From contig VHBP01000015.1 of the NCBI GenBank assembly GCA_016871915.1, forward strand, positions 1-45,560: a stretch of DNA of 45,560 nt, written 5' to 3'. The position numbers were made by a program, and so were the translations under genes. A model generated the notes under the pieces. The model did no database searches. It was given only the letters and a program-made list of their open reading frames with translations, and was not told the DNA's origin. The DNA comes from Gemmatimonadota bacterium. GTDB lineage: Bacteria > Gemmatimonadota > Gemmatimonadetes > Gemmatimonadales > Gemmatimonadaceae. This document shows positions 1-41,595 of this stretch, piece after piece; positions within the stretch are counted from its first letter, which is position 1; each line of letters opens with the position of its first letter.

Positions 1-142
1 CCGCCCCATCCACCCGCAACATCACGACGACGACGACCGCCTCGGTCCGACTCTCCCGCGCGATGGTGAAGCGCCCCGCGATCGGCCATTGCTCGACCGC
101 GACCTCGAGGGCGATCCCGCGCGCGCCCCCCGGCGCGCTCAC
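1..142 (-). CDS. Dipeptide epimerase (DgcA/YcjG-like), N-terminal fragment
   Basis: Only the first 47 codons lie in the window; the gene continues beyond base 1. It starts at a GTG (142-140) that overlaps the stop codon of the DUF1611 gene by four bases (GTGA). The visible peptide contains ALEVAVEQWPIAGRFTIARE and a run of valines, which matches the start of the enolase-superfamily dipeptide (L-Ala-D/L-Glu) epimerases. The DUF1611-epimerase pair is a recurrent operon; from published work on marine bacteria such pairs (DgcN-DgcA) act in D-glutamate catabolism, while other members act on muropeptides. Active-site lysines and metal ligands lie outside the window, so the substrate cannot be judged. 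This is too short for the usual ORF callers because it is cut by the window edge. Confidence 0.8.
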   Translation of the reverse strand, partial: MSAPGGARGIALEVAVEQWPIAGRFTIARESRTEAVVVVVMLRVDGA

Positions 143-1146: not shown

Positions 1147-1302
1147 GGCGGGTCCGAAGAGGGTAGCCCCACCGGTGCGGCGGAACAAGGCGTCCCGGCG
1201 GCGGGATCGGGGGCCGGCATTGCGCACCCCGACCATCGGTCCGAACTTCTGCGAGCCACTCGACATCCCCACTCCGCCTGATCCCCACCACGCCCACCCG
1301 CG

Positions 1303-4023: not shown

Positions 4024-4029
4024 GACGCG

Positions 4030-4887
4030 TCAGTCGATCGGGATGTGCTTGTCGCGCCCAAGCACCGTCTCGGCGCGCTGTGATCGCAGGAGGGGGAAGA
4101 GGAGCTGGTGGAGCCACCGCTCCTGGCCGTGGCGACGATCGTCCTTAAGCCCGTACGCCGGCGGGAACTGCCGCGTGATATGCGCCGTGCCGAAGAGCAC
4201 ATCCCAGAAGAAGAGCAGGTTCCCGTAATTCCCGTCGTAGTGCCCGATCCCGTCGTCCTGCGTCAGGGCGTGGTGCGCGTGATGCGTCGCCGGGGTCGAA
4301 ATGGTGCGCTCGAGGATCCAGGCGAGCGGATGGAAGACTCGATACTTGTAGAGGAAGCTGTCCCACCGCACCGCGGAATGTGCTCCGGTGATCACGAGGA
4401 GCTTCACCGTGCTGTAATAGACGAAGACCCACCCGAAGCCGAGGTAGAGCAGCGCCCCACCGAACCAGAGCCCTGGCATCAGGAGGTAATAGAGAAAGTT
4501 GTTCCGGTAGACCACCCGCACGCTCATGTACGCCGCGGAGTGATGCGCGCGGTGGAGAGGCCAGAGGACCGAGGTGTGCGAGAGGCGATGCCACCAATAC
4601 TGCGTGAGATCGTCGGCGATGAGCAGTACGCCGACCATCGCGTACCAGGGCCAATCGGCCCAGGCATCGCGCGCCTCCGGGAAGAGCGCCGCGCTGATCG
4701 CGCGTGAGGTGGCGAAGACCCCCGAGGCGACGACGGGGAACATGAGCCCGACGGCGACGTCGAGGTGATCGTCTTCGTGCCCCGCTTCGGGGGGGAAGAA
4801 GCGGCCGACGGCGACCTCGGCGAGCCCGAAGGTCAGGAAGATCCCGAGGAGGACGAGGACCTGGAAGAGTTGGGGGTCGAGGGTCAT
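4030..4887 (-). CDS. Sterol desaturase / fatty acid hydroxylase family membrane protein
   Basis: 285 residues with several hydrophobic helices (first about 8-27, then a cluster around 45-110 and 150-195). The diiron histidine clusters of this superfamily are all visible: HRLSH (HxxxH), HRAHH (HxxHH) and HHAHH. These residues bind a non-haem diiron centre that hydroxylates or desaturates lipids in the membrane. The physiological lipid is unknown; close relatives are annotated as sterol desaturases but hopanoid, carotenoid or fatty-acyl substrates are equally possible. The start is the ATG at 4887 (MTLDPQLFQ), where family similarity begins; the frame is open far upstream but that sequence is antisense to the permease gene. 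It converges with the kinase gene, leaving six bases between the stops. Confidence 0.9.
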   Translation of the reverse strand: MTLDPQLFQVLVLLGIFLTFGLAEVAVGRFFPPEAGHEDDHLDVAVGLMFPVVASGVFATSRAISAALFPEARDAWADWPWYAMVGVLLIADDLTQYWWHRLSHTSVLWPLHRAHHSAAYMSVRVVYRNNFLYYLLMPGLWFGGALLYLGFGWVFVYYSTVKLLVITGAHSAVRWDSFLYKYRVFHPLAWILERTISTPATHHAHHALTQDDGIGHYDGNYGNLLFFWDVLFGTAHITRQFPPAYGLKDDRRHGQERWLHQLLFPLLRSQRAETVLGRDKHIPID

Positions 4888-9950: not shown

Positions 9951-10032
9951 TGCCCTGGCGCGGACTCGAACCGCGACGCCTTGCGGCACCACCCCCTCAA
10001 GATGGCGTGTCTACCAATTTCACCACCAGGGC
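9951..10032 (-). tRNA. tRNA-Leu (GAG)
   Basis: 82 nt class II tRNA with a long variable arm (GTGCCGCAAGGCGT region). Acceptor stem GCCCTGG/CCAGGGC, D-loop typical of tRNA-Leu (AAATTGGTAGACA), anticodon stem CCATC/GGTGG with loop TTGAGGG (anticodon GAG), T-arm CGCGG TTCGAGT CCGCG, discriminator A. CCA is not encoded. Confidence 0.95.
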
Positions 10033-24444: not shown

Positions 24445-27400
24445 ATGCGCCCAGCCCTGCTTCGGTGGTCTCTCATTGGAATGCTGGTCGCACTCCCCCT
24501 AGGGGCTCAGCCCACCGAGCCGTCGATCCAGATCAGGAAGGATGCATCGGGCACCCGACTGGAAGTCGACGGGCGACCATTCATGATCAACGGGGTCAAT
24601 TGGGACTATGTCCCGGTCGGCGAGAACTACGCCTACGCCCTCTGGACCCAGCCGGATGCCTTCATCAGGGAAGCGCTCGAGCGCGAGATGGTGCTGGTGA
24701 AGCGAATGGGAGGGAACGCGATCCGTGTATACGCGGGGATCCCCCCACGCTGGGTGCGGCACATCTACGAGACCTACGGGATCTTCACCGTCGTGAACCA
24801 TCCGTTGGGCCGGTATGGGACCACGATCGACGGCGTCTACCAGGCCCAGACGAATTACGCGGATCCCCGCGTGCGTCAAGCGATCACCGATGAGGTCATG
24901 GCCCTCGTCAACGAGTTCCGTGGCACCCCCGGACTCCTCCTCTGGCTGCTCGGGAACGAGAACAACTACGGGCTGACCTGGCGCTCGGCTGAGACGGAGG
25001 CGCTCCCCGTCGGCGAGCGGGACGCGGCACGCGCACGCTATCTCTACTCCCTCGTGGGGGAGGTCGCTCGCACGATCAAAGCGGCGGACGCCGCCCATCC
25101 TGTCGCCTTCGCGAACGGCGACCTGCAATACGTCGACCTCATCGCGCGCGAGGCCAAGGGGATCGACATCCTCGGGTCCAACGTCTATCGCGGCGCCTCC
25201 TTCCGCGACTTCTTCGACGTGGTCGCGGCAAAGCTCGATCTCCCCGTCCTCTTCACCGAATTCGGGGCTGATGCCTGGAACGCGCGCGAAGCCCGCGAGG
25301 ATGAGACGGCGCAGGCGCGGTATCTCGTCGCCCAGTGGGAGGAGATCTATGGCCACGCTGCCGGTCAGGGACCACCGGGCAACGCGATCGGAGGGTTCAC
25401 CTTCCAATGGAGTGATGGCTGGTGGAAGTTCGGGCAGGAGACGCGCCTCGACCAGCACGATGTGAACGCCTCGTGGCCCGCCGATGCCTACCCACACGAC
25501 TATGTGGCGGGCGAGAACAACATGAATGAGGAGTGGTGGGGGATCATGGCGAAGGGGCCCCCGGATGCGCGCGGATTCTTCGAGCTGCATCCCCGGGCTG
25601 CTTACTACGCGCTTCAGCGCATCCATGCCGTCGATCCGTACGGTCCTGGGGTCGACCGAGCGCGACTCCGCGCCCACTTCGCCTCGATCGACCTGATCGG
25701 CCTCACCGCCCAGGCGCGCGCCGAACGGGCCGCGGCCGATGGCGACCAGAGCCCGGTCCGCGTCAAGGGGATGCGACTCGAACTCACCTCCTTCTCGACG
25801 GGTGGGGCACGCATCCGGACCCCGACGTCGAGTGCCCCGAGTGCGACCGATCGCCCGGCCTTCACGGGATTCGATCGGATGGAGTCGTACTTCGTGGAAT
25901 TCGAGGCGAAACCATCACCACGCCTCCAGGCGACCCTCGCGGTGAATGTCCTCGGCCACGTGGCCGAGAACCCGATCGATGAGATCTTTTATGAGAACCG
26001 CGGACGTCAGCGGACCCTGGGCCTCGCGGATGGTGGAGCCCTCCCGACGGATGGTGTCGAGCGGCTCAAGGTCTACCGCGCTCATGTCTCATGGGATGCC
26101 CCGACCTTCCGCCTCGAGGCCTTCCATCGGTCCGGGCACTATCACTGGGGCTACGAGGGGGACTTCTTCGGGGTGTACCGCGAGGCGAACTACGGTCGCA
26201 ACATCGACATCTACAATGCCGTCGCGCCGACCGGGCTGGAGCTCACCGGCAAGCGGCAACTGACCGGCCTTTCGGTGGCGGTCGGCCCCGAACTCTGGTG
26301 GGGCGCGAATCCGGCCGCGCTCGTGAAGTATCGGCGTCAGATCGCAGGGATCGACGTGACGGGCCTCATCCATGAGGACCTCGCGCGGATCCCCGTGGGG
26401 TCGACGACAAGTTCCCTCGCCATCCCACTCCCTCCGACACGGCGCGTCTCGCTCGCACTCGCCACCACGCTCGGCGGGATCGGTCTCGAGGCCGGTGGGA
26501 TCTGGGCGGGGTCGACCCGTGTGGGGGAGACCTTCCAGTATGTCGAGGGGACCCCGGGGAACTACCAGGTCCTGCAGGATGTGATCCGCCCGAGTGACAC
26601 CTTCGGCGCCAAGGCGAAGGTCACGCTAACACGTGGTCGAGTGAATTGGTACGCGCAGGGCGCGGTCATGGGACTCGTCGCCGACGGCGGACCGACCGCG
26701 GTGCAGACCTTCACCGGCTGGTGGCTCCGCGACACGGGGATGAGCAACCAGTGGAACGCCATGTCGGGGATCACCTACACGATCGGGGCCTTGCAGATCG
26801 CGCCCAATGTGTTGGTGCAAGCCCCGCTGATCGGCCCGATGCCGAGCGATGCCCCCGCCCCGGCCCGGCTGCGGAACGTGCTGCGCGACCCGTTCGTGGT
26901 GCGTGGTAATCGCGAGATGGCCGCCGGCGAACTCGTCCTGACCTGGGATCCGACGCCCGCCACCTGGATGTATCAGTGGGACAATGACGTGCGCGAGGAT
27001 GCCCGGTTCGCCGCGAGTCTCGCGTATACCTACAAGCATCTGCCGACGGGGATGGACGCGGCGATCGGCATCCTCGGGGATGGACGGACCCCGTTCGCCT
27101 TCCCCGCGTCGACCCCCGCTCGTGATCTGTGGGAGGTGCGCCTGCGCACCGTCGCGCGTGTCGGAAGCGACATCCGCGTGATCGCCAACCTCTACGGCGG
27201 CACCGCAGAGCCGAATGGGAATAGCCAGCGACTCGTCTCGCGTGCCGGCGGGGATCTTCGGCTCGTGACCGGTCCCATGAAGGTCATGGGGGCGATCCGC
27301 TTCAATGACTTCGGACCGTACGACTATCACCGCGACTTCAATCTCACCTTCCCCGCGCAGTACTTGGCGGATGTCGCGTACGTGCTCGGCAAGCCCCAGT

Positions 27401-27588
27401 GGTTCGATCTGCCGGAGACCAAGCTTGGCCTGCGCGGCACCTATCGCACCCTCGATCGCTACTCCCCGCGGTACTGTCCGGTTCGGGTTGCCAACGCGAT
27501 CGGCGACCAGGTCTGCGACGGCACGGCCCCGGGTTATCCCCTCGGACGGGAGTGGGAGATTCGCTCCTACCTGACGGTGGCCTGGTGA
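24445..27588 (+). CDS. Exported clan-A glycoside hydrolase fused to a C-terminal outer-membrane-like beta-barrel
   Basis: 1047 residues. A signal peptide (about 1-22, ending LPLGAQ) is followed by a TIM-barrel hydrolase (about 35-430). Typical clan-A signs are GVNWDY and GGNAIRVYAGIP near the start, the acid/base Glu in LLGNEN (E172) and the nucleophile Glu in LFTEFGADAW (E272). It resembles GH2/GH5 barrels and GH72-type glucanosyltransferases without matching one exactly. From about 440 to the end the chain has alternating polar/hydrophobic strands rich in Tyr, Trp, Gly and Arg and ends in an aromatic residue (SYLTVAW), as an outer-membrane barrel would. I infer a surface enzyme carried by its own barrel. 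First gene of the operon with GH3, operator directly upstream. ATG 24445 is chosen because the signal peptide starts there. Confidence 0.75.
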   Translation: MRPALLRWSLIGMLVALPLGAQPTEPSIQIRKDASGTRLEVDGRPFMINGVNWDYVPVGENYAYALWTQPDAFIREALEREMVLVKRMGGNAIRVYAGIPPRWVRHIYETYGIFTVVNHPLGRYGTTIDGVYQAQTNYADPRVRQAITDEVMALVNEFRGTPGLLLWLLGNENNYGLTWRSAETEALPVGERDAARARYLYSLVGEVARTIKAADAAHPVAFANGDLQYVDLIAREAKGIDILGSNVYRGASFRDFFDVVAAKLDLPVLFTEFGADAWNAREAREDETAQARYLVAQWEEIYGHAAGQGPPGNAIGGFTFQWSDGWWKFGQETRLDQHDVNASWPADAYPHDYVAGENNMNEEWWGIMAKGPPDARGFFELHPRAAYYALQRIHAVDPYGPGVDRARLRAHFASIDLIGLTAQARAERAAADGDQSPVRVKGMRLELTSFSTGGARIRTPTSSAPSATDRPAFTGFDRMESYFVEFEAKPSPRLQATLAVNVLGHVAENPIDEIFYENRGRQRTLGLADGGALPTDGVERLKVYRAHVSWDAPTFRLEAFHRSGHYHWGYEGDFFGVYREANYGRNIDIYNAVAPTGLELTGKRQLTGLSVAVGPELWWGANPAALVKYRRQIAGIDVTGLIHEDLARIPVGSTTSSLAIPLPPTRRVSLALATTLGGIGLEAGGIWAGSTRVGETFQYVEGTPGNYQVLQDVIRPSDTFGAKAKVTLTRGRVNWYAQGAVMGLVADGGPTAVQTFTGWWLRDTGMSNQWNAMSGITYTIGALQIAPNVLVQAPLIGPMPSDAPAPARLRNVLRDPFVVRGNREMAAGELVLTWDPTPATWMYQWDNDVREDARFAASLAYTYKHLPTGMDAAIGILGDGRTPFAFPASTPARDLWEVRLRTVARVGSDIRVIANLYGGTAEPNGNSQRLVSRAGGDLRLVTGPMKVMGAIRFNDFGPYDYHRDFNLTFPAQYLADVAYVLGKPQWFDLPETKLGLRGTYRTLDRYSPRYCPVRVANAIGDQVCDGTAPGYPLGREWEIRSYLTVAW

Positions 27589-29402
27589 GCGCCCCGACCC
27601 TGCCCCAGCCCAGCGCCGCCCAGGTGGAGGCGCGCGTAGACACGTTGCTCGGTCGGATGCGGCTCGCGGAGAAGCTCGGCCAGATGATCATGGGTGAGCG
27701 CGCCTCGACGACCCCTGAGGACGTCCGCGCGTATCACCTCGGCGCCGTCCTGAGTGGCTCCGGATCGGTGCCCGGTGAGAATCGTCCCGCCGATTGGGTC
27801 GCACTCAACGACGCCCTCTGGGTGGCGTCCACTGATGAGGCGGACGGACGTACTCCGGTCCCGCTCATGTACGCGGTCGACGCGGTGCATGGGCATGCGA
27901 ATGTGCGGGGAGCGACGATCTTCCCGCATCAGATCGGCCTCGGGGCCACGCGTGACCCGCAGCTCGTCGCCCGGATCGCACGGATCGTCGCGCGCGAGAT
28001 CCTCGCCACGGGACTCGACTGGAACTTCGCCCCGACCCTCGCGGTGGCTCGGCACGTCTATTGGGGACGCACCTACGAGAGCTTCTCCGATGACCCGTCC
28101 CTCGTGGCGACCTTCGCGGAACACTTCGTGCATGGGATACAAGGGACGCTGCGTGACGATGGCGTGCTCGCCTGTGCCAAACATTGGATCGGGGATGGCG
28201 CGACCTTCCAGGGGATCGATCAAGGCGATGCGCAGGTCACCGAAGCGGAGCTCCAGCGCACGCACCTGCCGCCATACCTCGCTGCCCTCCGCGCCAACGT
28301 TCAGACGGTGATGGTGTCGTTCAACAGCTGGAATGGGACCAAGTGCCATGCGCATCCTTACCTGCTGACCGAGGTCTTGAAGGGACGACTCGGATTCAGC
28401 GGCCTCGTCGTCAGCGACTGGGATGGGGTCGATCAGGTGGCCGAGGGCCTGGATGCGGCGATCGTGCTCTCCGTGAATGCGGGGGTCGACATGATCATGT
28501 GCGCGGCGGATTGGCGTCGTCGTCTTGACGGACTACAGCGCGCGGTCGAGCGTGGCGAGATCCCCCTCGCGCGCATTGACGACGCCGTCCGCCGGATCCT
28601 TCGGGTCAAGGTGCGATCGGGACTCGTGGACCGTGCCCGTCCGAGCGCCCGGCCCTGGGCCCTCAGCGAGACCTTTGGCAGTGCGGCCCATCGCGCGGTC
28701 GCCCGGGAAGCGGCCCGTCGCTCCCTCGTCCTCCTCAAGCATGAGGGAGCGACGCTTCCGCTCCAGCGGACCCAGCGGATCGTGGTCGCCGGCAAGCATG
28801 CCGACGACGTGAGTCATCAGTGCGGGGGGTTCAGCGCCGCCTGGCAGGGAACGCATGGCAACGAGGCGATCGAGGGGGGCACGTCGATCTGGCAGGCCAT
28901 CCGCGCGATCGCCCCAGCGGCTACCCTCAGTGTGGATGGGAGTGCCGCTGATCCAGCGGCACATGATGTCGCGGTCGTGGTGATCGGCGAGCTGCCGTAC
29001 GCCGAGGGGATGGGGGACATCCGTCCGGGGGGGCGAATCACTCCCCCGCTCCCCGGTGGGCTCCGCACCGCCAATCTGGAACCATACGGCTCCACCTTGG
29101 AGCTCGCGACGCGCCATCCTGAGGACCTCGCGGTGATCTCTGCCCTCCGGGCGAAGGGGATCCCCGTGGTGACCGTGCTCCTCTCGGGACGTCCCCTGCT
29201 CGTCGATCGTGAGCTCGCGGCGTCGCAGGCCTTCGTCGCCGCGTGGCTCCCAGGATCGGAGGGAGCTGGGATCACCGATGTGTTGTTTGGTGATCACGAC
29301 TTCGAGGGGACACTCCCCTTTCCTTGGCCTGCCGCGGCGCCGAGCCCCGACGGGGTCGCTCCCGCGCGCTTCCCGCGCGGGTTCGGTCGCACCTACCGCT
29401 GA
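27585..29402 (+). CDS. Glycoside hydrolase family 3 beta-glucosidase (cytoplasmic)
   Basis: 605 residues. The N-terminal barrel domain has DWNFAPTLAVARHVYWGRTYESFSDDP in shortened family form, the conserved Lys-His in ACAKHWIGDG (K199-H200) and the nucleophile Asp in VVSDWDG (D278). The C-terminal sandwich domain (about 385-605) has VVIGELPYAEG and ends in FPRGFGRTYR, without the Fn3 domain of longer members. It is closest in build to exo-acting beta-1,3/1,4-glucosidases. The GTG start (27585) overlaps the stop of the hydrolase-barrel gene by four bases. No signal peptide is seen, so it should split imported gluco-oligosaccharides to glucose in the cytoplasm (or be exported by another route). 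It converges on the symporter gene, 21 bp away. Confidence 0.93.
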   Translation: MSAPTLPQPSAAQVEARVDTLLGRMRLAEKLGQMIMGERASTTPEDVRAYHLGAVLSGSGSVPGENRPADWVALNDALWVASTDEADGRTPVPLMYAVDAVHGHANVRGATIFPHQIGLGATRDPQLVARIARIVAREILATGLDWNFAPTLAVARHVYWGRTYESFSDDPSLVATFAEHFVHGIQGTLRDDGVLACAKHWIGDGATFQGIDQGDAQVTEAELQRTHLPPYLAALRANVQTVMVSFNSWNGTKCHAHPYLLTEVLKGRLGFSGLVVSDWDGVDQVAEGLDAAIVLSVNAGVDMIMCAADWRRRLDGLQRAVERGEIPLARIDDAVRRILRVKVRSGLVDRARPSARPWALSETFGSAAHRAVAREAARRSLVLLKHEGATLPLQRTQRIVVAGKHADDVSHQCGGFSAAWQGTHGNEAIEGGTSIWQAIRAIAPAATLSVDGSAADPAAHDVAVVVIGELPYAEGMGDIRPGGRITPPLPGGLRTANLEPYGSTLELATRHPEDLAVISALRAKGIPVVTVLLSGRPLLVDRELAASQAFVAAWLPGSEGAGITDVLFGDHDFEGTLPFPWPAAAPSPDGVAPARFPRGFGRTYR

Positions 29403-29423: not shown

Positions 29424-30962
29424 CTACGCCACCGTGGCGCGGCGCCGCTCAAGCTCGGTGCGAACCTCATAGGCGCGTGCCTCGGTCAGCGGGTAGTCCC
29501 ACATGATCCAGATCGCGAGCCCCGAGGCGAGGAAGGGGATCCAGACATCGGCGAGTCGCAGCAGAGAGAGCGTCTGGGCGGACTGGGCCCCACCGAGGGC
29601 GACATCGAACCCGGTGGCATTCAGGATCAGCCCACCCGCCGCGAGGGCGACCGCCATCCCGACCTTCACCACCCACCAGAAGATCGAGCCGAACATCCCT
29701 TCGCGGCGGCGCTGGGTCTCGAGTTCATCGGTGTCGACGACATCGGCCATCATCGCCCCCATCAGGGTGAAGAGGCCGCCGAGCCCGAAGGCGAGGAGTG
29801 GCGCCGGGACGAGGACGAGCCACGGCCGGGCCGGATCGTAACAGACCCACTTGAGCGCATACCCGACCATCGAGAGCCCCGTCGAGACGAAGAACGCGCG
29901 CTGCTTCCCGATCCGCGTCGCGAGCCAGGTGATAAAGGCGATCACCCCGAAGGTGGAGATCGCACCGAGGGTCCCCGCGTACCCGGTATAGCGCGCCCCC
30001 AGCTCCTGATCCCCACCGAACACATAGTAGATCACCACGTACGACTGGAACGACGAGATCATGATGAAGCCGTTGAACACCAGGAAGGTCGCCAGACACA
30101 GCCGTCGGAAGGGACGGGTGCGCAGGGTGACGGCGAAGCCGTGGAAGAAGGTGCGCGCCTGCCGACGGACAGCCGACCACCCCACGGGCGCGGCATCCTC
30201 GACCGGTGACGCCGCTGGCCGTGCGGTCGCTGGCAGGAGCCGCTCGCGCAGGACGATCGCCGGGATGATGCCCACCGCGCAGGCGACGACCCCCACCGCG
30301 ATGGCCAGACCGCGCGCTCCCTCCGCGGGCGTGGCGAACCACGTGGGATTCGTCATGATCCAGAGGAACCAGGGGGAGACGATGTAGGCGAGCTGCGCGA
30401 TGAAGTTCTGCACCCCCATGAGTCGCGTCCGCTCATGGTAATCCGGGGTCAGCTCGTAGCCGAGGGCGACCCACGGCGTCGCGAAGATCGTATAGCCGAC
30501 ATAGAAGACGGTGGATCCGATCGTGAAGTACCAGAAGTACCAGAGCTCGCTCTTCCCCACCGGGAGGAGCCAGAGGAGCGCGAACGAGACGCCCGAGAAG
30601 AGCGCGCCGATGAAGATGTAGGGTCGCCGTCGCCCCCAGCGGGAGCGGGTGCCATCCGAGATGAAGCCCATCAGCGGATCGGTGAGGGCATCCGTCACGC
30701 GCGGGATCGCACTGGCCAGCCCCACCAACGCGGGATTCATACCGAAGCCCAGATTGAGGATGATGAGCATCCCACCGATCGCTGCGGCGAGGGTGTTGTT
30801 CACGAACCCGCCGAGCCCGTACGCGAGCTTATGCGAGAAGGGGATGCGGTCCGCCGGCGCCGTCACATGCCGGAGGGCCCTCTCCGGATCGGTGCCACGG
30901 CTCAGCCGCGTGTGCCACGCGGCAAGGGCGAGGCGGAACCAGCCGGGACGACGGCCGCTCAT
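29424..30962 (-). CDS. Glycoside-pentoside-hexuronide (GPH) type MFS sugar symporter
   Basis: 512 residues. After a 45-residue cytoplasmic leader with many Arg, twelve hydrophobic segments follow, starting at KLAYGLGGFVNNTLAAAIGG, a typical opening of GPH:cation symporters, and including ALTDPLMGFISDGTRSRWGRRRPYIF, the conserved loop 2-3 motif. Such carriers bring in mono- or disaccharides with protons or sodium ions. Its ATG overlaps the stop of the GH16 gene by four bases. In this locus it should carry the glucose-oligomers released by the GH16 and hydrolase-barrel enzymes to the cytoplasmic GH3 enzyme. Last gene of the minus-strand operon. Confidence 0.88.
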   Translation of the reverse strand: MSGRRPGWFRLALAAWHTRLSRGTDPERALRHVTAPADRIPFSHKLAYGLGGFVNNTLAAAIGGMLIILNLGFGMNPALVGLASAIPRVTDALTDPLMGFISDGTRSRWGRRRPYIFIGALFSGVSFALLWLLPVGKSELWYFWYFTIGSTVFYVGYTIFATPWVALGYELTPDYHERTRLMGVQNFIAQLAYIVSPWFLWIMTNPTWFATPAEGARGLAIAVGVVACAVGIIPAIVLRERLLPATARPAASPVEDAAPVGWSAVRRQARTFFHGFAVTLRTRPFRRLCLATFLVFNGFIMISSFQSYVVIYYVFGGDQELGARYTGYAGTLGAISTFGVIAFITWLATRIGKQRAFFVSTGLSMVGYALKWVCYDPARPWLVLVPAPLLAFGLGGLFTLMGAMMADVVDTDELETQRRREGMFGSIFWWVVKVGMAVALAAGGLILNATGFDVALGGAQSAQTLSLLRLADVWIPFLASGLAIWIMWDYPLTEARAYEVRTELERRRATVA

Positions 30963-31747
30963 CGGCGCTCCTGGAAGACGCGAACCCAATCGATGGTCAG
31001 GGTCTGCGGGAAGACGGTGGAGGCATCCGGTGCGCCGACGAAGCCCCCTCCGACCGCAAGGTTGAGGATGAGGAAGAACTCGTGGTCGAAGACCCACGGG
31101 CCGGGCTGATCTCCCTTGGCGACGACGTGATAGAGCCTTTCATCGAGGTAGAATCGGATCTCCCGCGGGGTCCAGTCCGCTCGGTAGACGTGGAAGTCCT
31201 CATCGAGCCGGCCCGTCGGGAGGGTGTAGCGCCGCGTGAGCGATGCCCCTCCTGAGTAGCCTGGCCCATGGACGCTCGCGAGCACCACCGAGGGTTCTTG
31301 ACCGCGGTACTCCATCACATCGATCTCACCGGCGCGAGGCCACCCGACCGCCGGGAAATCCGCCCCGAGCAGCCAGAACGCGGGCCAGAGCCCACGCCCC
31401 GTAGGCAGCTTCATCCGCGCCTCGAATCGCCCGTACTGGAACTGGCGTCGCCCCAGCGTCTTGAGTCGAGCGGAGGTGTACTCACGATTCAGATACGCCT
31501 CGCGTCGGGCCGTGATGACCAGATGCCCCGCGCCATCGAGGGCGGCATTGGTGCGCCGATCCGTGTCGAACTCCAACTGCGCATTCCCCCAGTCGGTCCC
31601 GATGTCGGCGACCCACGAGGTCGGATCGGGGGCGGATCCCGCTGGTCCGTCGAATTCATCCGACCAGACGAGCGTATAGGTCGGGGCCGTGGCCCCGGTG
31701 CAGCCGCTGAACAAGAGCGCGAGCCCCAGCACACGAAAGGATGGCAT
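30959..31747 (-). CDS. Glycoside hydrolase family 16 endo-beta-glucanase (laminarinase-like) lipoprotein
   Basis: 262 residues. A lipoprotein signal peptide ends in LFSGC (Cys16). The catalytic motif GEIDVMEY (E141, D143, E146) with the extra Met of the beta-bulge, and WSDEFDG, WPAFWLLG and WPRAGEID around it, are those of GH16 laminarinases and related beta-1,3(4)-glucanases. It should cut beta-glucan chains from the cell surface or periplasm. ATG 31747 is chosen because the signal peptide starts there; the open frame upstream overlaps the ROK gene. It is 19 bp downstream of the ROK stop and overlaps the symporter start. Endo-1,3 action is inferred from family resemblance. Confidence 0.93.
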   Translation of the reverse strand: MPSFRVLGLALLFSGCTGATAPTYTLVWSDEFDGPAGSAPDPTSWVADIGTDWGNAQLEFDTDRRTNAALDGAGHLVITARREAYLNREYTSARLKTLGRRQFQYGRFEARMKLPTGRGLWPAFWLLGADFPAVGWPRAGEIDVMEYRGQEPSVVLASVHGPGYSGGASLTRRYTLPTGRLDEDFHVYRADWTPREIRFYLDERLYHVVAKGDQPGPWVFDHEFFLILNLAVGGGFVGAPDASTVFPQTLTIDWVRVFQERR

Positions 31748-31766: not shown

Positions 31767-33023
31767 TCAGCGCCCGACGCGGGCACGTGACACCGCGCGA
31801 AAGAGGCGCGGGTCGCGCAGCGCGGCATCGAGCACGAGCGTCGCCGCCCCGAGGGCGATGCCATGGCGACCGAGCGTGCTGGCGCGAATCTCGGTCGCTG
31901 CCGCCGCCGGGACGAAGGTCCGGCGCAGCGCGTTGGCTCGCAGCGGGACGATCAAGCGATCGCCCAACCCGGCGATCCGTCCCCCGAGGATCACCGCCGC
32001 CGGATTCAAGAGGTTGAGCATCCCCGCGATCGCCACGCCGAGATGCTCCGCCGCCTCGTGGACCACCTGGAGGGCTAAGGGATCGTCCTCGCGCGCTGCC
32101 GCCTCGAGTCGCGCGATCGTCGGGGCGCCCGTGGCCAAGGGGCTCTGCGGATAGACCGGGGCGAGGGCGCGGATGCGTGCTTCGAGTGCGGGCGCCCCGA
32201 CGAAGGTGGTGAGACAGCCACGATTGCCGCAGTTGCAGGTCTCTCCGCGCGGATCGATGGCGATATGGCCGATCTCCCCGCCGACGCCGCTCGCTCCGCG
32301 ATGCATCCGCCCATCGATCACGTGCCCCGCCCCGATCCCTGTCGCGATCTTGATGTAGGCGAAGTGGTCGAGGCCCTGGGCGGCCCCCCACCAGCGCTCA
32401 GCGAGCGCCCCGAGGTTCGCGTCGTTGTCGACGAGGACGGGGACCTCGAGGTCCGCCAACAACTCGCTGAGCCCGTGGCGGCCCTCCCACGCCGGCATCG
32501 CGACCGGGGAGAGGCGATCAGGATGACGCAGATCGACGGGACTTGGGACGGCCACGCCGACGCCGACGAGCCGACGCGCGGTCGACCCGGGACCGGCGAG
32601 ACAGGCGTCCACCTGCGCGCGAATCACCCGTCGAGCGCCGACCGGATCCGTCTGCACCGGATGCGCGCTGCGCTCCGAGGCGAGGATCCGTCCACGAAGA
32701 TCGGTGAGGATCGTCGCGACATGGGCGGCGCCCATATCCACGCCGAGGATCGTCCCCGCGTCATCTTGGAACTCGAGGACGATCGGACGGCGCCCACCCC
32801 GCGAGGCCCCGACCCCTGCCTCACGCACCAACCCCGTCGCGAGCAAGGTCTCCACGATCTCCGAGACCGTCGATCGCGAGAGCTCGGCGCGGCGCGCGAT
32901 CTCCGCGCGGGAGATCCGCTCCTCATCCCAGATCAGCCGGAGTACGGCATCGGCCAACGACGGTGGGCGCGTCGGACCGAAATCCGACGCGCCCACCCGG
33001 GGACCCGGAGACCGGGTCATCAT
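31767..33023 (-). CDS. ROK-family transcriptional regulator
   Basis: 418 residues. An N-terminal winged helix-turn-helix (about 22-80, with ISRAEIARRAELSRSTVSEI) is followed by a ROK sugar-kinase-like domain: GVDMGAAHVATILTDLRG, DNDANLGALAE, the sugar-contact GEIGHI (E250, H253) and the zinc site CNCGNRGCL (263-271). This is the NagC/Mlc/XylR build, in which sugar binding releases the repressor from palindromic operators. The palindromes at 24387-24409 and 35531-35551 are the obvious sites, so it probably represses both operons including its own, with a glucose-like inducer. The two first codons are both ATG (33023 and 33020). It lies 36 bp after the lipoprotein gene. Confidence 0.92.
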   Translation of the reverse strand: MMTRSPGPRVGASDFGPTRPPSLADAVLRLIWDEERISRAEIARRAELSRSTVSEIVETLLATGLVREAGVGASRGGRRPIVLEFQDDAGTILGVDMGAAHVATILTDLRGRILASERSAHPVQTDPVGARRVIRAQVDACLAGPGSTARRLVGVGVAVPSPVDLRHPDRLSPVAMPAWEGRHGLSELLADLEVPVLVDNDANLGALAERWWGAAQGLDHFAYIKIATGIGAGHVIDGRMHRGASGVGGEIGHIAIDPRGETCNCGNRGCLTTFVGAPALEARIRALAPVYPQSPLATGAPTIARLEAAAREDDPLALQVVHEAAEHLGVAIAGMLNLLNPAAVILGGRIAGLGDRLIVPLRANALRRTFVPAAAATEIRASTLGRHGIALGAATLVLDAALRDPRLFRAVSRARVGR

Positions 33024-33059: not shown

Positions 33060-35459
33060 CTACTTATGGAAGAGGACGTTGTCGATGAAGGCGGTCCGCG
33101 ACGTGGGTGCGCTCACGAAGATGAGCTGCGCGAGGTTCGACCGGGTGGTGAGACCGGTGAACTGGCTCAGCGGGATGTTGAACGTCACCCAGCTCCCCGT
33201 CGCCAACGCCGGCGTCGTGGTGGCCGAGAAGACCAACTCATGCTCCTTGTCGTCACCGCCGCCGAACGCATTATTCGCACCGAAGTCGACCAGCTTGACC
33301 TTGAACTGCGCCGGCGCGGTGGTCGGATCAGGCGTCCAGAGATCGAAGGAAAAGTGCGTCATCGTCGACGCATTCACCGTGGCGGTGGTGAACTCGGTCC
33401 CAGAGAAGACGAGGTTGGAGTACTTCTTGACGTCGTTCCCCGCGACCTGGACATCAGCGACATCAGCCTGATCCCACGACGCCGACCAGGTGTCGACCGT
33501 GCGATTGGTGTAGGCGTTGCTGAAGAGCGAGATCACGTCCGCCGCCGCATAGCTCGGCGTCGGCGCAGCGACCGCCGGGCCATCCGACGAGAAGAAAACG
33601 TTGTCGAGGAAGAGGGTCCCGACCGAGCCAGAGAGAATCAGCTGCGCGACGCTCGTCCGCCCCGTCATCCCCGTGAAGCTCGAGAGGGGAAGCTGGAAGC
33701 GGATCCAGCTCCCGCGTGTGAGTGCCGGGGTGGTCGTGGTGGTGAAGGTGCGCTCGTGCTCGGTGTCGTCTCCCCCTCCGAACGATCCATTCGCGCCCCA
33801 GTCGACGAGCTTAACCTTAAAGGTCGACGCCGAGGTAAGCGAATCGGGGAGCCAGAGATCGAAGTTGAAAGTCGTCATCGCCGTGGCATTCACGGGTGCC
33901 GCTGGCTCGATCCCCGCGAAGACAAGGTTCGTGTACTTCTTCACGTCATCGGTCCCCACCTTCACATCGGCGACGTCGGCCTGATCCCACGAGGTCGACC
34001 AGGTGGTCCCGGTGCGATCGGTGTAGGCGTTGCTGAAGAGGGAGATCACGCTCGCGGCCGGGTTCGTCGGCGCGGTATTGGCGCTCGTCGGGCCCGGCGG
34101 CGGCGGGATCTTGTAGAAGTAGATGTTGTCCAGGTAGGCCGTGGGGCTCCCCGAGATGATCATCTGCGCGAGGTTCGCCCGCGTGGTCAGCCCCGTGAAG
34201 GCGGAGAAGGGGATGTCGATCGAGTTCCACGCGCCGACGGTGATCGACGGGGTGGAGGTCCCGGTCAGGGTAACCTCATGCTCCTTGTCATCGCCACCTC
34301 CGAAGGCCCCGTTAGCCCCGAAGTCGACGAGCTTGATCTTGAATCCGGCAGCACTCGTGACCCAGAGATCGAGGTGCAGCCCCGTCATCGGCGTAGCGTC
34401 GACGCGGGAGGTGATGAACTCGATCCCGGCGTATGAGAGATTGGTGTACTTCTTGGCCGCATTGCCTGCGATCGTCACGTCGGCGACATCGGCCTGGTCC
34501 CACGAGGCCGACCAGGTGTCGACCGTCCGATTGGTGTAGGCATTGCTGAAGAGCGAGATCACGTCGCCAGCCGCCCGCGTGGGGGTCGGCGCCGCCGCAG
34601 CCGGCGGCACGCTCGCCGTGAGTGCGATGCTCCCTGTGGCAGGGATCGCTCCAAGGGCCCCGCTGATCGTCGCCGAGCCGGCTCCGGCGACGGTGATCAC
34701 GCCGTTGGTGACAGTGGCGACCGCCGCATTGGACGTGTTGAAGGTGAAATACCCAGCCGCCGCCGCGACGGTCTGATCCACACCCGCGACCGCTGCGGTC
34801 ACCGAGGTCCCGACGATCTTCCGGCTGTCCCCGACCTCCTGTTGATACGACCCGCCTGCGATCGTGGGCCGCACGTTGGTCACGGTCCCGAGGCTCTCGT
34901 ATTGGATGTCGTCGAGCCAGAGCGTATAGCCCTGCCCATTCTCCGGACCCTCCGCGAAGAAGAAGAGCCCCTTCTCCGAGGTGAGCTTGCTCGCCAGCGG
35001 GATCGCGATGGTGTACTTCTGCCACGAGGTCGTGAGCGCCAGGGCAGTCCGTTCCGCCGGATACAGTGACGTCCCAGTGTTGTCGTTGCCAAGGCCCGCG
35101 ACATCCAAGGTCGCCGCGACGCTCCCCTTCGCGTAGAAGGAGATGACGTCGTACTTGGTCAGATCACGCCCCTGGTCGGCGACGAACGCCCCACCCGCAT
35201 AGGCCCCCGCCGAATTCCCGGCCGCGGGCACGACGATCTTCAGCGAGCTGCTGCCGCGGAACTTGACCGCGTTGTCGATGGACATCGCGGTGAGCAGCGA
35301 GCCCTGGAAGGCCTGCCAGGTCACCCCATCGCTGAACGCGTCGGTGAAGACCTTCGGATCGTTGGCGAGGGGGGCTGGACCGGTTCCGCCATCGCGGCTG
35401 CATCCCAGCACGGGGAGCACGAGGAGCGAGAGGACGGACAGGAGACGGGGCGATCGCAT
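33060..35459 (-). CDS. Surface glycan-binding lipoprotein with three tandem CBM-like repeats
   Basis: 799 residues. Lipoprotein signal peptide with GC at residues 19-20. Residues about 35-190 look like a carbohydrate-binding jelly roll (SSSLKIVVPAA, SFYAKGS, TLWLDDIQYES). A BIG2-like Ig domain follows (about 200-290). Then three repeats start at 300, 471 and 642, exactly 171 residues apart, each opening with VISLFSNAYT, then W-x-x-SWDQADVAD, KKYxNLxFxGIE and ending in a strand such as AFIDNVLFHK. Similar repeats occur attached to laminarinases of marine Bacteroidota (from memory of the family). No catalytic motif is seen. First gene of the minus-strand operon, behind a promoter and operator. 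It should hold beta-glucan at the surface for the GH16 enzyme. Confidence 0.82.
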   Translation of the reverse strand: MRSPRLLSVLSLLVLPVLGCSRDGGTGPAPLANDPKVFTDAFSDGVTWQAFQGSLLTAMSIDNAVKFRGSSSLKIVVPAAGNSAGAYAGGAFVADQGRDLTKYDVISFYAKGSVAATLDVAGLGNDNTGTSLYPAERTALALTTSWQKYTIAIPLASKLTSEKGLFFFAEGPENGQGYTLWLDDIQYESLGTVTNVRPTIAGGSYQQEVGDSRKIVGTSVTAAVAGVDQTVAAAAGYFTFNTSNAAVATVTNGVITVAGAGSATISGALGAIPATGSIALTASVPPAAAAPTPTRAAGDVISLFSNAYTNRTVDTWSASWDQADVADVTIAGNAAKKYTNLSYAGIEFITSRVDATPMTGLHLDLWVTSAAGFKIKLVDFGANGAFGGGDDKEHEVTLTGTSTPSITVGAWNSIDIPFSAFTGLTTRANLAQMIISGSPTAYLDNIYFYKIPPPPGPTSANTAPTNPAASVISLFSNAYTDRTGTTWSTSWDQADVADVKVGTDDVKKYTNLVFAGIEPAAPVNATAMTTFNFDLWLPDSLTSASTFKVKLVDWGANGSFGGGDDTEHERTFTTTTTPALTRGSWIRFQLPLSSFTGMTGRTSVAQLILSGSVGTLFLDNVFFSSDGPAVAAPTPSYAAADVISLFSNAYTNRTVDTWSASWDQADVADVQVAGNDVKKYSNLVFSGTEFTTATVNASTMTHFSFDLWTPDPTTAPAQFKVKLVDFGANNAFGGGDDKEHELVFSATTTPALATGSWVTFNIPLSQFTGLTTRSNLAQLIFVSAPTSRTAFIDNVLFHK

Positions 35460-37087: not shown

Positions 37088-37116
37088 TTGCCACCCCTGG
37101 ATCCGGGGCGCATACT
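37088..37116 (+). promoter_or_regulatory. Candidate sigma70-type promoter of the amidohydrolase pair
   Basis: TTGCCA (37088-37093), a 17-base spacer and CATACT (37111-37116): five and four matches to consensus. It lies 100 bases upstream of the GTG start of the first amidohydrolase and after the divergent DUF4258-like gene. The 250 bp between the two genes hold no other visible feature. Confidence 0.45.
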
Positions 37117-37216
37117 GCAGGCGGTGCGCGTGACCCGCAACCCGGCGACGCAGGCGCCGAGACCCTCGACCCCCGATGACCGCCCGCCCCGCCGGCCATC
37201 GCCCACGGAGCACCTC

Positions 37217-40192
37217 GTGAGAGCTTCCCGCACCATCCCGGCCCTCGCCCTCTGGCTGGCCGGCACCCTCGGCGCCCAGCAGGCGTCGCGCCTCGAGCCG
37301 GTCACCGGCCTGCGCGACAACGGCACCGGGTTCCATGCCCTCGTCGGCGCGCGTGTGGTCACCGCGCCGGGCCAATCCATCGATAGTGCCACCATCGTGA
37401 TCCGGAATGGCCTCGTCACCGTCGTCGGCCGCAACCTCAAGGCGCCGGCCGGCGCCCGGGTCTGGGACCTCAAGGGGCTCACCGTCTTCCCGGGATTTAT
37501 CGACGCCCACGCCGACCTCGGGATGGACGCCGTCCCGCAGGGCGGTGACGTCGGACCGACGCACTGGAATCCGCAGGTGCGCGCCTGGTTCAGCACCACG
37601 ACCAACCTCAAGGACGACTCCACCCGTCGCGTCGCGCTGCGATCGCTCGGCTTCGGCGCGGCCCTGGCCGTCCCACATCAGGGGATCTTCCGCGGACTCG
37701 CCTCGGTCGTGAACCTCAGCGACGCCGGCGTGCGTGAGCGCGTCCTCCGCGCCGACCTCGTGCAGTCGGTCGGCTTCCAGCGCTCCTTCCAGCTCGGCGG
37801 GATGTATCCGAACTCAGCGATGGGGACCACCGCGCTGATGCGGCAGACCTTCATGGACGCCGAGTGGTACATCCGCGCGAACGCCGCCTATGAGGCGAGC
37901 GGACGCAGCGTGTTGCCGCCGGAGCGCAGCGAGGCGCTCGGCGCTCTGGCGAACGCCGTGCAAGGGAAGCAGCCGGTGCTCTTCCAGACCGGGAGTGAGG
38001 AGGAGTACCTCCGCGCCCATCGCATCGCCACCGAGTACAAGCTCACCCCCTGGTACCGCGGCAATGGGACCGAGTACCGGCTCATCGATGTGCTCAAGGG
38101 CCGGACGCAGCCACTGATCATCCCGCTCAACTTCCCCGACGCCCCCGACGTCTCGAGCCCCGAGGCCGCGCTCAACGCCTCGCTCGCCACGATGCGCCAC
38201 TGGTATCAGGCGCCGACCAATCCGGCGCAGCTCGCCAGCGCCGGGGTGCCGTTCGCGATCACGACTGATGGACTCACCACGCTGACGCAGTTCCTCCCGA
38301 ACCTCCGCCTCGCGGTCTCGCGCGGGTTGGCCGCCGACAAGGCGCTCGCCGCCCTCACCACGGTGCCCGCGGGCTGGCTCGGCATCGACCGCACCCATGG
38401 CACGATCGCGGTCGGCAAGGTCGCGAACCTCATCATCGCCGAGGGGGATCTCTTCACGCAGGACGCGAGCATCCGCGATGTCTGGGTGCAGGGCATGCCG
38501 TACGGCGTGACGCGCCCGCCGCAGATCGACCCGCGCGGGACCTGGACCATCACCTCCACGGACAAGGACGGCTTCAACGCCACCCTGCGCCTCGAAGGGC
38601 CGATCAATCGGATCCGCGGGACGATCGAGCGCGCGGGCCGCAAGGAGCTCCCGCTCGCCGCGGTGCGCCTCGTCGCCGAGACCGGACGACTCGAGATCAC
38701 CTTTAATGGTGAGCAGCTCGGCTATGAAGGGACCGTGCTGATGTCCGGCGCGGTCAGCGGCGATGAGGTCTATGGCTGGACCTCGCTGCCGAACGGCACC
38801 GATCCGACCTTCAAGGGCACGCGCACCGAGCCCTACACGGGCGCGACGCGCGGCACGGTGGCGCAGAAGGTGCCGGTCATCGACCTCCCCTTCGTCCGCC
38901 CGATGATCGAGTTCGGTCGGTCGTCGATCCCCGAGCAGCCGGCCGTGCTGTTGGTGCGCAACGCGACGGTCTGGACACAGGGATCGCAGGGGCGCCTCGA
39001 GAATGCGGATCTCCTCGTCCGCGCCGGCAAGGTCGCGCAAGTCGGTCGTGGGCTCACCGCGCCGCGCGGCGCGATCGTCGTCGATGCCTCCGGCAAGCAT
39101 GTCACGCCGGGGCTGATCGACCCGCACACGCACACCGGGGTCAGCTCGGTGAATGAGAGCGGCTTCGCGATCGTCCCCGAAGTGCGGATGGGTGATGTCC
39201 TCACGCACAACGACATCTGGATGTACCGGCAGCTCGCCGGTGGGCTCACAATGCAGATGGTGAAGCACGGCTCCGCGAACCCGATTGGTGGCGAGAACGT
39301 CTTCGTGAAGAATCGGTGGGGGCTCCTCCCCGACGAGTATCGTCTGGAGAATGCGCCGCGCACGGTGAAGTTCGCGCTCGGTGAGAACCCGAAGCGCAGC
39401 CCGAACCGTTACCCCAACACGCGGATGGGGGTGCAGGAGATCATCCGCGACCACTTCAACGCCGCGCGCGATTACCGGCGTGAGTGGCAGCGGTGGGAGA
39501 AGGAGAAGACGGGGCTCCCGCCGCGGCGTGACCTCCGGATGGAGGCGCTCCTCGACATCCTCGATCAGAAGCTCCTCGTCTCCTCGCACGGTTACCGCGC
39601 CGACGAGTTCCTCGCGCTGGTGCGACTCGCCGAGGAGTTCGGCTTCCGCATCCAGACCCTGCAGCACGGGGTCGAGGCATACAAGATCGCGTCGGAGCTC
39701 AAGGCCTCCGGCGTCGCGGCCGTCGTCTGGAGCGACTGGGGGGCGTTCAAGCTCGAGTCATACGACGCGACGTCGTATAATGCGCGCCTCCTGATGGAGG
39801 CCGGTGTCGTGACCTCGCTGCACTCGGACAACGCCGAGATCTCCTCCCGCATGAACTGGGAGGCGGGCAAGCTCCTCCGCTCAGGGGTCGATGAGATCCA
39901 AGCCCTCTCGACCGTCACCAACCAGGCGGCACGCGCCATCGCCATCCAGGACCGTGTCGGATCGCTCGAGGCCGGCAATGACGCTGATTTCGTGATCTGG
40001 AACGGCAATCCGCTCTCGCAGTTCACGCGCGCCGAGCAGACCTGGGTGGACGGCCGTCGCTACTTCTCGTTGGAGGAGGACGCCAAGCAGCGCGAAGAGA
40101 TCGCGAAGCAGCGTGCCCAGTTGATCCAAGCCATCCTCGCCGCCGCGCCGTCGGGCGGCCCCGCTCCCACCGCCACGCCGACCAGACCGTGA
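37217..40192 (+). CDS. Exported tandem amidohydrolase (two imidazolonepropionase-like halves)
   Basis: 991 residues. A signal peptide (about 1-21, ending TLGAQQ) leads to two amidohydrolase domains. The first (about 38-460) has FPGFIDAHADLG, where the metal-binding HxH is HxD (98-100), and FAITTDGL. The second (about 580-970) has the intact TPGLIDPHTHTG (H637, H639), a possible His in SSHGYRADE and TLQHGVEAY, and the metal-binding Asp in SLHSDNAE (D871). A beta-rich stretch links them. Only the second half looks fully active. GTG 37217 is chosen for its signal peptide and a GGAG six bases upstream; the frame is open to 37088. It overlaps the next amidohydrolase gene by four bases. Periplasmic; the substrate, perhaps a cyclic or N-blocked peptide, is unknown. 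Confidence 0.88.
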   Translation: MRASRTIPALALWLAGTLGAQQASRLEPVTGLRDNGTGFHALVGARVVTAPGQSIDSATIVIRNGLVTVVGRNLKAPAGARVWDLKGLTVFPGFIDAHADLGMDAVPQGGDVGPTHWNPQVRAWFSTTTNLKDDSTRRVALRSLGFGAALAVPHQGIFRGLASVVNLSDAGVRERVLRADLVQSVGFQRSFQLGGMYPNSAMGTTALMRQTFMDAEWYIRANAAYEASGRSVLPPERSEALGALANAVQGKQPVLFQTGSEEEYLRAHRIATEYKLTPWYRGNGTEYRLIDVLKGRTQPLIIPLNFPDAPDVSSPEAALNASLATMRHWYQAPTNPAQLASAGVPFAITTDGLTTLTQFLPNLRLAVSRGLAADKALAALTTVPAGWLGIDRTHGTIAVGKVANLIIAEGDLFTQDASIRDVWVQGMPYGVTRPPQIDPRGTWTITSTDKDGFNATLRLEGPINRIRGTIERAGRKELPLAAVRLVAETGRLEITFNGEQLGYEGTVLMSGAVSGDEVYGWTSLPNGTDPTFKGTRTEPYTGATRGTVAQKVPVIDLPFVRPMIEFGRSSIPEQPAVLLVRNATVWTQGSQGRLENADLLVRAGKVAQVGRGLTAPRGAIVVDASGKHVTPGLIDPHTHTGVSSVNESGFAIVPEVRMGDVLTHNDIWMYRQLAGGLTMQMVKHGSANPIGGENVFVKNRWGLLPDEYRLENAPRTVKFALGENPKRSPNRYPNTRMGVQEIIRDHFNAARDYRREWQRWEKEKTGLPPRRDLRMEALLDILDQKLLVSSHGYRADEFLALVRLAEEFGFRIQTLQHGVEAYKIASELKASGVAAVVWSDWGAFKLESYDATSYNARLLMEAGVVTSLHSDNAEISSRMNWEAGKLLRSGVDEIQALSTVTNQAARAIAIQDRVGSLEAGNDADFVIWNGNPLSQFTRAEQTWVDGRRYFSLEEDAKQREEIAKQRAQLIQAILAAAPSGGPAPTATPTRP

Positions 40193-41595
40193 CCTTCACC
40201 TACTCGACTCCCATGCACAGCACGGATCGTAGCACCCTCCGGTCGGCCGGGCGGCGCACCGCCACCCTCGCCCTCGGGCTCATCGCTGCGCTCTCGGCGC
40301 ATGCCGTCGGCGCGCAGGTCACGACCCCTGTGGCCCCGCAGTCGCAGCCGGTGGTACTCCGCGGCGCGACCATCCACACCGTGACCAAGGGCACCATCAC
40401 CAAGGGGACGATCGTCCTCGATAAGGGCCGCATCCTCGCCATCGGTGGCGCGGACGTCGCGGTGCCGCGCGGCGCCAAGGTGGTCGACGTCGCCGGGAAG
40501 CACATCTATCCCGGCCTCATCGACGCCTATAGCACCGTCGGCATCACCGAGATCGATGCCGTCGAGGTCTCGAACGACATCACCGAGCTCGGCGACTTCA
40601 ATCCGAACGTGCGGGCCGAGGTCGCGGTCAACGCGGAGAGCCGGCACATCGGCACCTCGCGCTCGGCCGGTGTGCTCGTCGCGTTCAGCACTCCCGAGGG
40701 CGGGGTGATCTCAGGGCTCTCCTCGGCGATGTCGCTCGAGGGGTGGACCTGGGAGGAGATGTCGATGAAGGGCGCCGCGGCGCTCAACGTGAACTGGCCC
40801 GATCCGGTCGCGCGCCCGCGTCGCTTCGGCGGCCCACCCCCGGGCGCGATGGGCCCCGGTGCGCGTTCCCCGGCCCCCAAGACCTACGCCGAGCAGGTGC
40901 AGGCGCTCAAGGACTTCTTCGCCGAAGCGCGGGCGTATCGGGATGCGCAGCAGGCGGGACAGGTCGCGCGCACCGATGTGCGGTATGCGTCGATGATTCC
41001 CGTATTGGATCGTGCGATCCCCGTGGTCGTCGCGGCGAACTCCGTCTCGCAGATCAACGACGCCATCACCTGGGCCAAGGCGGAGGGGGTGCGCCTCGTG
41101 ATCCGCGGTGGGCGCGACGCGATCCATGTCGCCGACCGCCTGAAGGCGGAGAACATCCCGGTGATCCTGACCTCCACGCTCGACGCCCCCCAGCGCACCT
41201 ATGAGGGGTACGACGGCGGCTACAACGCGCCGGCGCAGCTCTACGCCGCTGGCGTGCGTTTCGCGATCGCCGGTGGGTCGGGCGGCCTCTACACCTATCG
41301 CCTGCCGTGGGAGGCAGGGGTCGCGGTCGCCTTCGGTCTGCCGGAGGAGGAGGCGCTGAAGGCGGTGACGATCAACGCCGCCGAGTTCATGGGGATCGCC
41401 GACCAGGTCGGTTCGTTGGAGGTCGGGAAGCAGGCGACGTTGCTGATCACCTCGGGGACGCCGCTCAACATGACGTCGGATGTGATCCAGGCCTACATCC
41501 AGGGCCGCGAGATCGACATGAACGACATGCAGAAGCAGTTCTTCAAGAAGTACATGGAGAAGATCAAGCAGCAGCCGGGGAAGATCGCGATGTGA
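40189..41595 (+). CDS. Exported amidohydrolase-like protein lacking the HxH metal motif
   Basis: 468 residues. A signal peptide (positive n-region with RSAGRR, hydrophobic ALGLIAALSAHAVGAQ) precedes an amidohydrolase fold: composite beta-sandwich residues (VVLRGATIHT, GTIVLDKGRILAIG), the loop YPGLIDAYSTVG, and the C-terminal GSLEVGKQATLLI. At 112-115 the usual D-x-H-x-H is DAYS, and the late Asp is replaced in FAIAGGSGG, so both main metal ligands are lost. This points to a non-catalytic partner of the preceding enzyme. GTG 40189 overlaps the upstream stop; ATG 40213 would also leave a complete signal peptide. The C-terminus is Lys/Met/Gln rich. Confidence 0.85.
   Translation: MTFTYSTPMHSTDRSTLRSAGRRTATLALGLIAALSAHAVGAQVTTPVAPQSQPVVLRGATIHTVTKGTITKGTIVLDKGRILAIGGADVAVPRGAKVVDVAGKHIYPGLIDAYSTVGITEIDAVEVSNDITELGDFNPNVRAEVAVNAESRHIGTSRSAGVLVAFSTPEGGVISGLSSAMSLEGWTWEEMSMKGAAALNVNWPDPVARPRRFGGPPPGAMGPGARSPAPKTYAEQVQALKDFFAEARAYRDAQQAGQVARTDVRYASMIPVLDRAIPVVVAANSVSQINDAITWAKAEGVRLVIRGGRDAIHVADRLKAENIPVILTSTLDAPQRTYEGYDGGYNAPAQLYAAGVRFAIAGGSGGLYTYRLPWEAGVAVAFGLPEEEALKAVTINAAEFMGIADQVGSLEVGKQATLLITSGTPLNMTSDVIQAYIQGREIDMNDMQKQFFKKYMEKIKQQPGKIAM

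Follow-up and report, generated by a model that had tools for sequence, protein, structure and literature searches.

A single-chain glycoside hydrolase–β-barrel fusion as a candidate outer-membrane enzyme-channel for β-1,3-glucan in loci that rarely carry SusC/SusD

Laminarin ranks among the major storage sugars of algae; its uptake in Bacteroidota has been described through SusC/SusD. In the polysaccharide utilisation loci (PULs) of this phylum, the SusC/SusD utilisome unites an outer-membrane barrel, a surface glycan-binding lipoprotein and a surface endo-glucanase, with further enzymes in the periplasm and cytoplasm. One SusCD pair has been given as the minimum that a PUL encodes (PMC7618045), and the fusion of outer-membrane pore proteins to other domains has been described as rare (PMC4827864). 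In the part of Kuhaudomlarp et al. 2018 considered here (PMC5827456), Bacteroidetes clusters with and without susCD carry the same β-1,3-glucan enzyme set; the GH149 'CAZyme clusters' without susCD or a TonB receptor combine GH149, GH3/GH30 and GH16/GH17, those of type II also contain a PF13347 transporter, and no outer-membrane gate is named for them—leaving the crossing of the outer membrane unexplained. Among described enzymes, the closest relative of the protein reported here is the endo-β-1,3-glucanase family GH158 of clan GH-A (BuGH158, PDB 6pal; GH158(Pro), 9oro). Mutating N136, E137 or E220 abolishes the activity of BuGH158, which bears an Ig-like domain (PMC7157763). The family described below, which joins a glycoside hydrolase to a predicted outer-membrane barrel (hereafter the GH-barrel protein), departs from both general statements on PULs and pores. 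We class it as a variant polysaccharide utilisation system whose outer-membrane component is of a new kind.

The gene lies in a 45,560-nucleotide stretch of Gemmatimonadota DNA (the window) as a single, complete forward-strand frame (24445–27588) that stays open for 1047 codons and encodes one chain of 1047 amino acids. A signal peptide, a clan GH-A TIM barrel and a C-terminal half of about 610 residues follow one another along this chain. The signal peptide (residues 1–21; 24445–24507, forward strand; N-terminus MRPALLRWSLIGMLVALPLGAQ) is of the Sec/SPI type and, as judged by eye, lacks a lipobox. Among the fused relatives, a lipobox pattern matched eight of 177 proteins, none convincingly, most of these matches being a cysteine that lies within the hydrophobic stretch ahead of an AxA-type site. 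The original prediction, made from the sequence alone, had proposed a signal peptide, a hydrolase and an outer-membrane-type barrel in one chain; a Sec-type leader is present, and structure predictions and fold matches bear out the architecture. The stop codon overlaps the GTG start of a downstream GH3 β-glucosidase gene without signal peptide (GTGA, 27585–27588; GH3 at 27585–29402, forward strand; Pfam E 1.7e-79), and the two genes are therefore probably translated in a coupled manner. A search for promoter-like patterns near the GH-barrel gene gave nothing useful. The source genome comprises 2.07 Mb in 120 contigs, and the nearest named relatives of the protein are Gemmatimonadota records.

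The whole-chain AlphaFold2 model, built on a 73-sequence alignment, had a pTM of 0.73, which makes the placement of the domains moderately sure. In this model, residues 25–395 (24517–25629, forward strand) adopt a (β/α)8 barrel with the hallmarks of clan GH-A: the invariant pair N171–E172 follows strand β-4 (164–169) and supplies the acid/base, and the nucleophile E272 ends strand β-7 (268–273). Both glutamates (E172 in GNEN, E272 in TEFG), which the original prediction had placed correctly within a clan-A TIM barrel, are invariant across the alignment and coincide with the catalytic E137/E220 motifs of BuGH158. Family databases gave little more: Pfam returned a weak Glyco_hydro_2_C match alone (PF02836, residues 40–280, E 7.9e-6) and NCBIfam partial β-galactosidase matches alone. 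A profile that included stand-alone and remote relatives ranked GH158 first in the PDB (GH158(Pro), E 1.4e-14; BuGH158, E 6.8e-13), at about 20% identity. Structural Z scores, however, tie GH158 with GH5, GH2 and GH157, so that membership of GH158 is no more than possible despite this best profile match. The TIM half is a probable GH158-like, β-1,3-glucan-cutting enzyme, in line with the β-1,3-glucan context of its gene, bearing the predicted barrel in place of the Ig-like domain of BuGH158. Residues 396–437 (25630–25755, forward strand) form the helical tail of the enzyme and a linker, with predicted helices at 405–413 and 417–432, and are mostly found in stand-alone relatives too.

Since the whole-chain VIA-align matches listed concerned the TIM half alone, the barrel half was folded and searched separately. 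AlphaFold2 modelled residues 430–1047 with 77 sequences at a pTM of 0.82, yielding a predicted closed transmembrane β-barrel of 24 strands at residues 438–1047 (25756–27585, forward strand). Two predictions place 24 membrane-type strands within residues 438–1046, a count that omits a hairpin (696–713) sitting inside an outer loop. The inside/outside hydrophobic alternation of these strands (2.45) exceeded that of all 2000 shuffles (mean 1.41, s.d. 0.21); the TIM strands of the same chain do not alternate. The approximately 600 alternating residues of the original prediction are modelled as a membrane barrel and not as the soluble jelly rolls or propellers it had named as the contrary outcome, whereas its terminal aromatic residue, although present here (W1047), recurs in only 29 of 179 relatives. 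On the side of the N- and C-termini, eight of 11 turns span two to three residues, and the loops on the opposite side all span 9–37—which, with the signal peptide and the even number of alternating strands, gives the predicted layout of an outer-membrane β-barrel. A plug, which a barrel of 24 strands would require, was not identified.

Fold searches with the barrel half point the same way. Foldseek matched MOMP, TonB-dependent receptors, AlgE and LptD, and every top row listed by VIA-align was a transmembrane barrel. The list is headed by the PapC/FimD ushers, which align over the full length (Z 14.7; rmsd 5.1 across 357 residues), and continues with the AlgE/OprD porins. The ushers share the number of 24 strands, but identity to them is about 9%, the GH-barrel protein has no usher Pfam match and sits in a sugar cluster, and none of the plug, NTD or CTD domains of ushers was seen in it. 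Likewise, neither the TonB plug (PF07715) nor the TonB barrel (PF00593) matched at E ≤ 1 in Pfam. Conservation sets the far-side loops apart as well: those at 562–595 (0.90), 615–623 (0.94) and 956–968 (0.95) rank with the best-conserved stretches of the chain, unlike the usually variable outer loops of porins, which suggests to us a role in substrate binding or gating.

The species-genome collection contains at least 585 stretches that encode relatives, the best 80 of which match over nearly the full length. They occur in Gemmatimonadota, Bacteroidota, Zixibacteria, KSB1, Calditrichia, Ignavibacteria, Eisenbacteria, Krumholzibacteria and other groups, with a patchy spread; 36 of 298 Gemmatimonadota genomes carry the fusion, in one copy each. 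Cultured carriers include Flavobacterium degerlachei (L067) and Flavobacterium petrolei (L081). The full-length build recurs in many genomes at an identity of roughly 50% or above, which excludes chance, and a truncation artefact was rejected, nearly all relatives found by the barrel half alone sitting in frames of some 1080–1200 amino acids. Gene copies in two loci, L204 (G550:C53) and L183 (G519), are broken or ended by the contig edge, and one of them has an internal stop codon. Neither Pfam nor NCBIfam holds a family of this build, as the original prediction had surmised, and a search of open-access literature yielded no earlier description of a hydrolase–barrel fusion. A record of the gut species Bacteroides finegoldii (L117, NZ_OY725931.1) carries the fusion as a 'glycoside hydrolase family 2 TIM barrel-domain containing protein', an annotation that hides the candidate gate. 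This record is titled 'plasmid 29' but holds genes for valine-tRNA ligase, ribosomal protein S1 and MazG, and is therefore probably a mislabelled chromosomal contig.

The neighbourhood in the window belongs to glycan breakdown. Beyond the GH3 gene, the reverse strand encodes an MFS_2 inner-membrane sugar transporter (PF13347, 29424–31097, E 2.9e-59), a laminarinase-type GH16 lipoprotein with the lipobox FSGC (30959–31747, E 4.2e-24), a ROK-family transcriptional regulator (31767–33023, E 6.9e-55) and a lipoprotein resembling carbohydrate-binding modules (CBM-like; 33060–35459, lipobox VLGC). The latter is without a Pfam family, contains three copies of a repeat centred on WSxSWDQADVADV...KKYxNLxFxGIEF and probably serves the barrel as its glycan-binding partner at the surface; it may represent a new glycan-binding family with a SusD-like role. 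In the 52 fused loci flanked by 6.5 kb or more of sequence in each direction, this lipoprotein was found in 50, GH16 in 51, the MFS transporter in 33, GH149 in 29, GH17 in 24 and GH30 in 21, with GH3 also often present. A neighbour of 1150 amino acids, considered as a SusC or a second fusion, proved by its match to 6hq6 to be the β-1,3-oligoglucan phosphorylase GH149. No TonB plug or barrel family appeared among the 25 commonest Pfam families listed for 51 large flanking reading frames; as such a listing could hide a single match, SusC/SusD was counted by tblastn, which found it in one of the 52 loci. In that locus (L021), the pair lies upstream (locus positions 2–4607, with the fusion at 10001). 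The conserved neighbours that were identified comprise sugar importers, β-glucosidases, a phosphorylase and sugar-type regulators, with no glycan synthase among them. The fused loci are β-1,3-glucan catabolic clusters. They match the published susCD-less GH149 clusters in their enzymes and, for type II, in PF13347, and differ from what the part of that report considered here describes (PMC5827456) in having a candidate gate—one that recurs in many phyla, gut Bacteroides included.

Stand-alone TIM proteins, found alongside fused ones when 395 Bacteroidota genomes were searched, offer a natural experiment, in that sibling loci with the same enzymes hold either the fusion or SusCD. These proteins of about 440–470 amino acids are some 50% identical, end near residue 420–430 without a barrel and begin, in about five of eight cases, with a lipobox. 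In a quick tree supported by SH-aLRT values alone, they nest inside the fused clade and require at least five changes; repeated loss of the barrel is the probable explanation. The eight stand-alone loci compared retain GH149, GH17 and MFS, but none has the CBM-like lipoprotein. SusC and SusD occur in three of them: L192 and L195, by Pfam, and L210, whose pair is 79–80% identical to that of L192 and which lies on the contig of the stand-alone locus L193; SusC proteins from sibling loci do match the TonB plug model. The other five show no SusCD within the sequence at hand, partly as contigs end. Related fused loci (L205–L208) run fusion–lipoprotein–GH16–GH149–GH17 without SusCD. Fusion plus lipoprotein and free TIM plus SusC plus SusD thus appear interchangeable in otherwise matching loci, on counts that are small and from related genomes that are not independent. 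With SusC/SusD near absent from fused loci and the lipoprotein absent from stand-alone loci, three of which have SusC/SusD, the fusion and its lipoprotein look like a SusCD substitute for β-1,3-glucan uptake. The two systems occupy the same locus slot; SusC/SusD, however, has a TonB plug, a SusD family and 22 strands, while the fusion has neither a TonB plug nor a SusD family, 24 predicted strands, and enzyme and barrel in one chain, and extends to non-Bacteroidota phyla. Four loci with remote TIM relatives (L199–L202; 24–29% identity), all with a lipobox-like leader and beside GH3/GH16 or GH149/GH17, possibly represent another unnamed β-1,3-glucan enzyme family; two carry a CarboxypepD_reg domain and three are weakly similar to GH72.

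Building on what sequence and statistics establish—the fusion, its catalytic residues, its gene context and its exchange with SusCD loci—we consider it fairly probable that the GH-barrel protein acts as an outer-membrane enzyme-channel for the uptake of β-1,3-glucan of the laminarin type without SusC/SusD. The surface CBM-like lipoprotein would hold the glucan and GH16 would cut it; a fragment would then enter the barrel, whose long, aromatic-rich and unusually conserved outer loops would serve as binding and gating site. As it is attached before strand 1, the GH158-like domain would most likely sit at the periplasmic mouth, where it could cut or transfer the emerging chain, leaving the last steps to GH17/GH30 in the periplasm (in loci that have them), to import by the MFS transporter and to GH3 or GH149 in the cytoplasm. 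The context argues strongly for β-1,3-glucan as the substrate; import through the barrel is moderately supported—the putative entry pore of the original prediction fitting the near absence of SusC/SusD—and a coupling of cutting to entry weakly so. More tentatively, and at somewhat under an even chance, the family could form an unrecognised class of glycan importer, in which a channel of 24 strands bears its own clan GH-A glucanase at the periplasmic mouth and works with a CBM-like lipoprotein dedicated to it. Such an importer would replace SusC/SusD for β-1,3-glucan uptake in many phyla and might be powered by hydrolysis at the exit, not by TonB. Occupying the locus slot of the standard SusC/SusD importer of other bacteria, the GH-barrel protein may be an overlooked entry route for sugars from algae or fungi.

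The side of the membrane on which the enzyme works separates this reading from its main competitor. In normal outer-membrane protein topology, an N-terminal domain lies in the periplasm, and the even strand number and short termini-side turns imply the same here unless the enzyme is threaded out. Such threading has precedent in patatin-type (type Vd) autotransporters, in which an N-terminal enzyme can leave through its own barrel; by analogy, the barrel could be mainly an anchor displaying the enzyme at the surface beside GH16, and far-side loops conserved up to 0.95 would be expected if they touched an enzyme outside. Autotransporters have 12–16 strands, though, as against the 24 predicted here, and no autotransporter family matched in Pfam; the helix before strand 1 belongs to the stand-alone enzyme too and is thus not one reserved for threading. 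A known surface-export signal of lipoproteins consists of acidic residues behind the cysteine; in Bacteroidota loci, at least two follow it in 24 of 28 CBM-like lipoproteins, and the signal is seen in 15 of 20 GH16 and none of 15 GH17 or eight GH30 proteins. It occurs in only one of five stand-alone TIM lipoproteins, and surface display would also leave the near absence of SusCD unexplained. The display by the barrel that the original prediction suggested is thus unlikely; a periplasmic enzyme is the likelier arrangement, with moderate confidence, neither topology nor lipoprotein signals being decisive. Covariation among 134 fused sequences (effective 86.5), analysed with a view to siting the enzyme relative to the barrel, placed adjacent-strand pairs in 11 of the 300 top pairs against 0.7% expected, and the top enzyme–barrel pairs resembled shared ancestry.

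A periplasmic enzyme would also suit a closed or plugged barrel that merely holds the glucanase while the sugar enters by way of a different TonB receptor or a porin. Several lineages tolerate loss of the barrel, five of the eight stand-alone loci have no SusCD nearby, and any of the 17 TonB-type barrel matches elsewhere in the host genome could be the importer. Yet a lipid anchor, which several stand-alone relatives have, would suffice for that purpose, the CBM-like lipoprotein is missing wherever the barrel is missing (0/8), and SusCD is nearly absent from the fused loci, all of which make this scaffold role improbable. A pore of the AlgE/PelB/PgaA type that secretes or trims a self-made β-1,3-glucan with its hydrolase is highly improbable: synthase-dependent exporters do pair a barrel with a periplasmic hydrolase, an analogy to which AlgE, among the best fold matches, and the weak likeness of remote TIM relatives to the glucanosyltransferases of GH72 lend some colour, but the conserved neighbours that were identified are importers, catabolic enzymes and regulators, with no glycan synthase. 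Elsewhere in the window, on the forward strand, lie a Ser/Thr protein kinase gene with PD40 β-propeller repeats (1303–4023) and two successive amidohydrolase-family genes (37088–41595).
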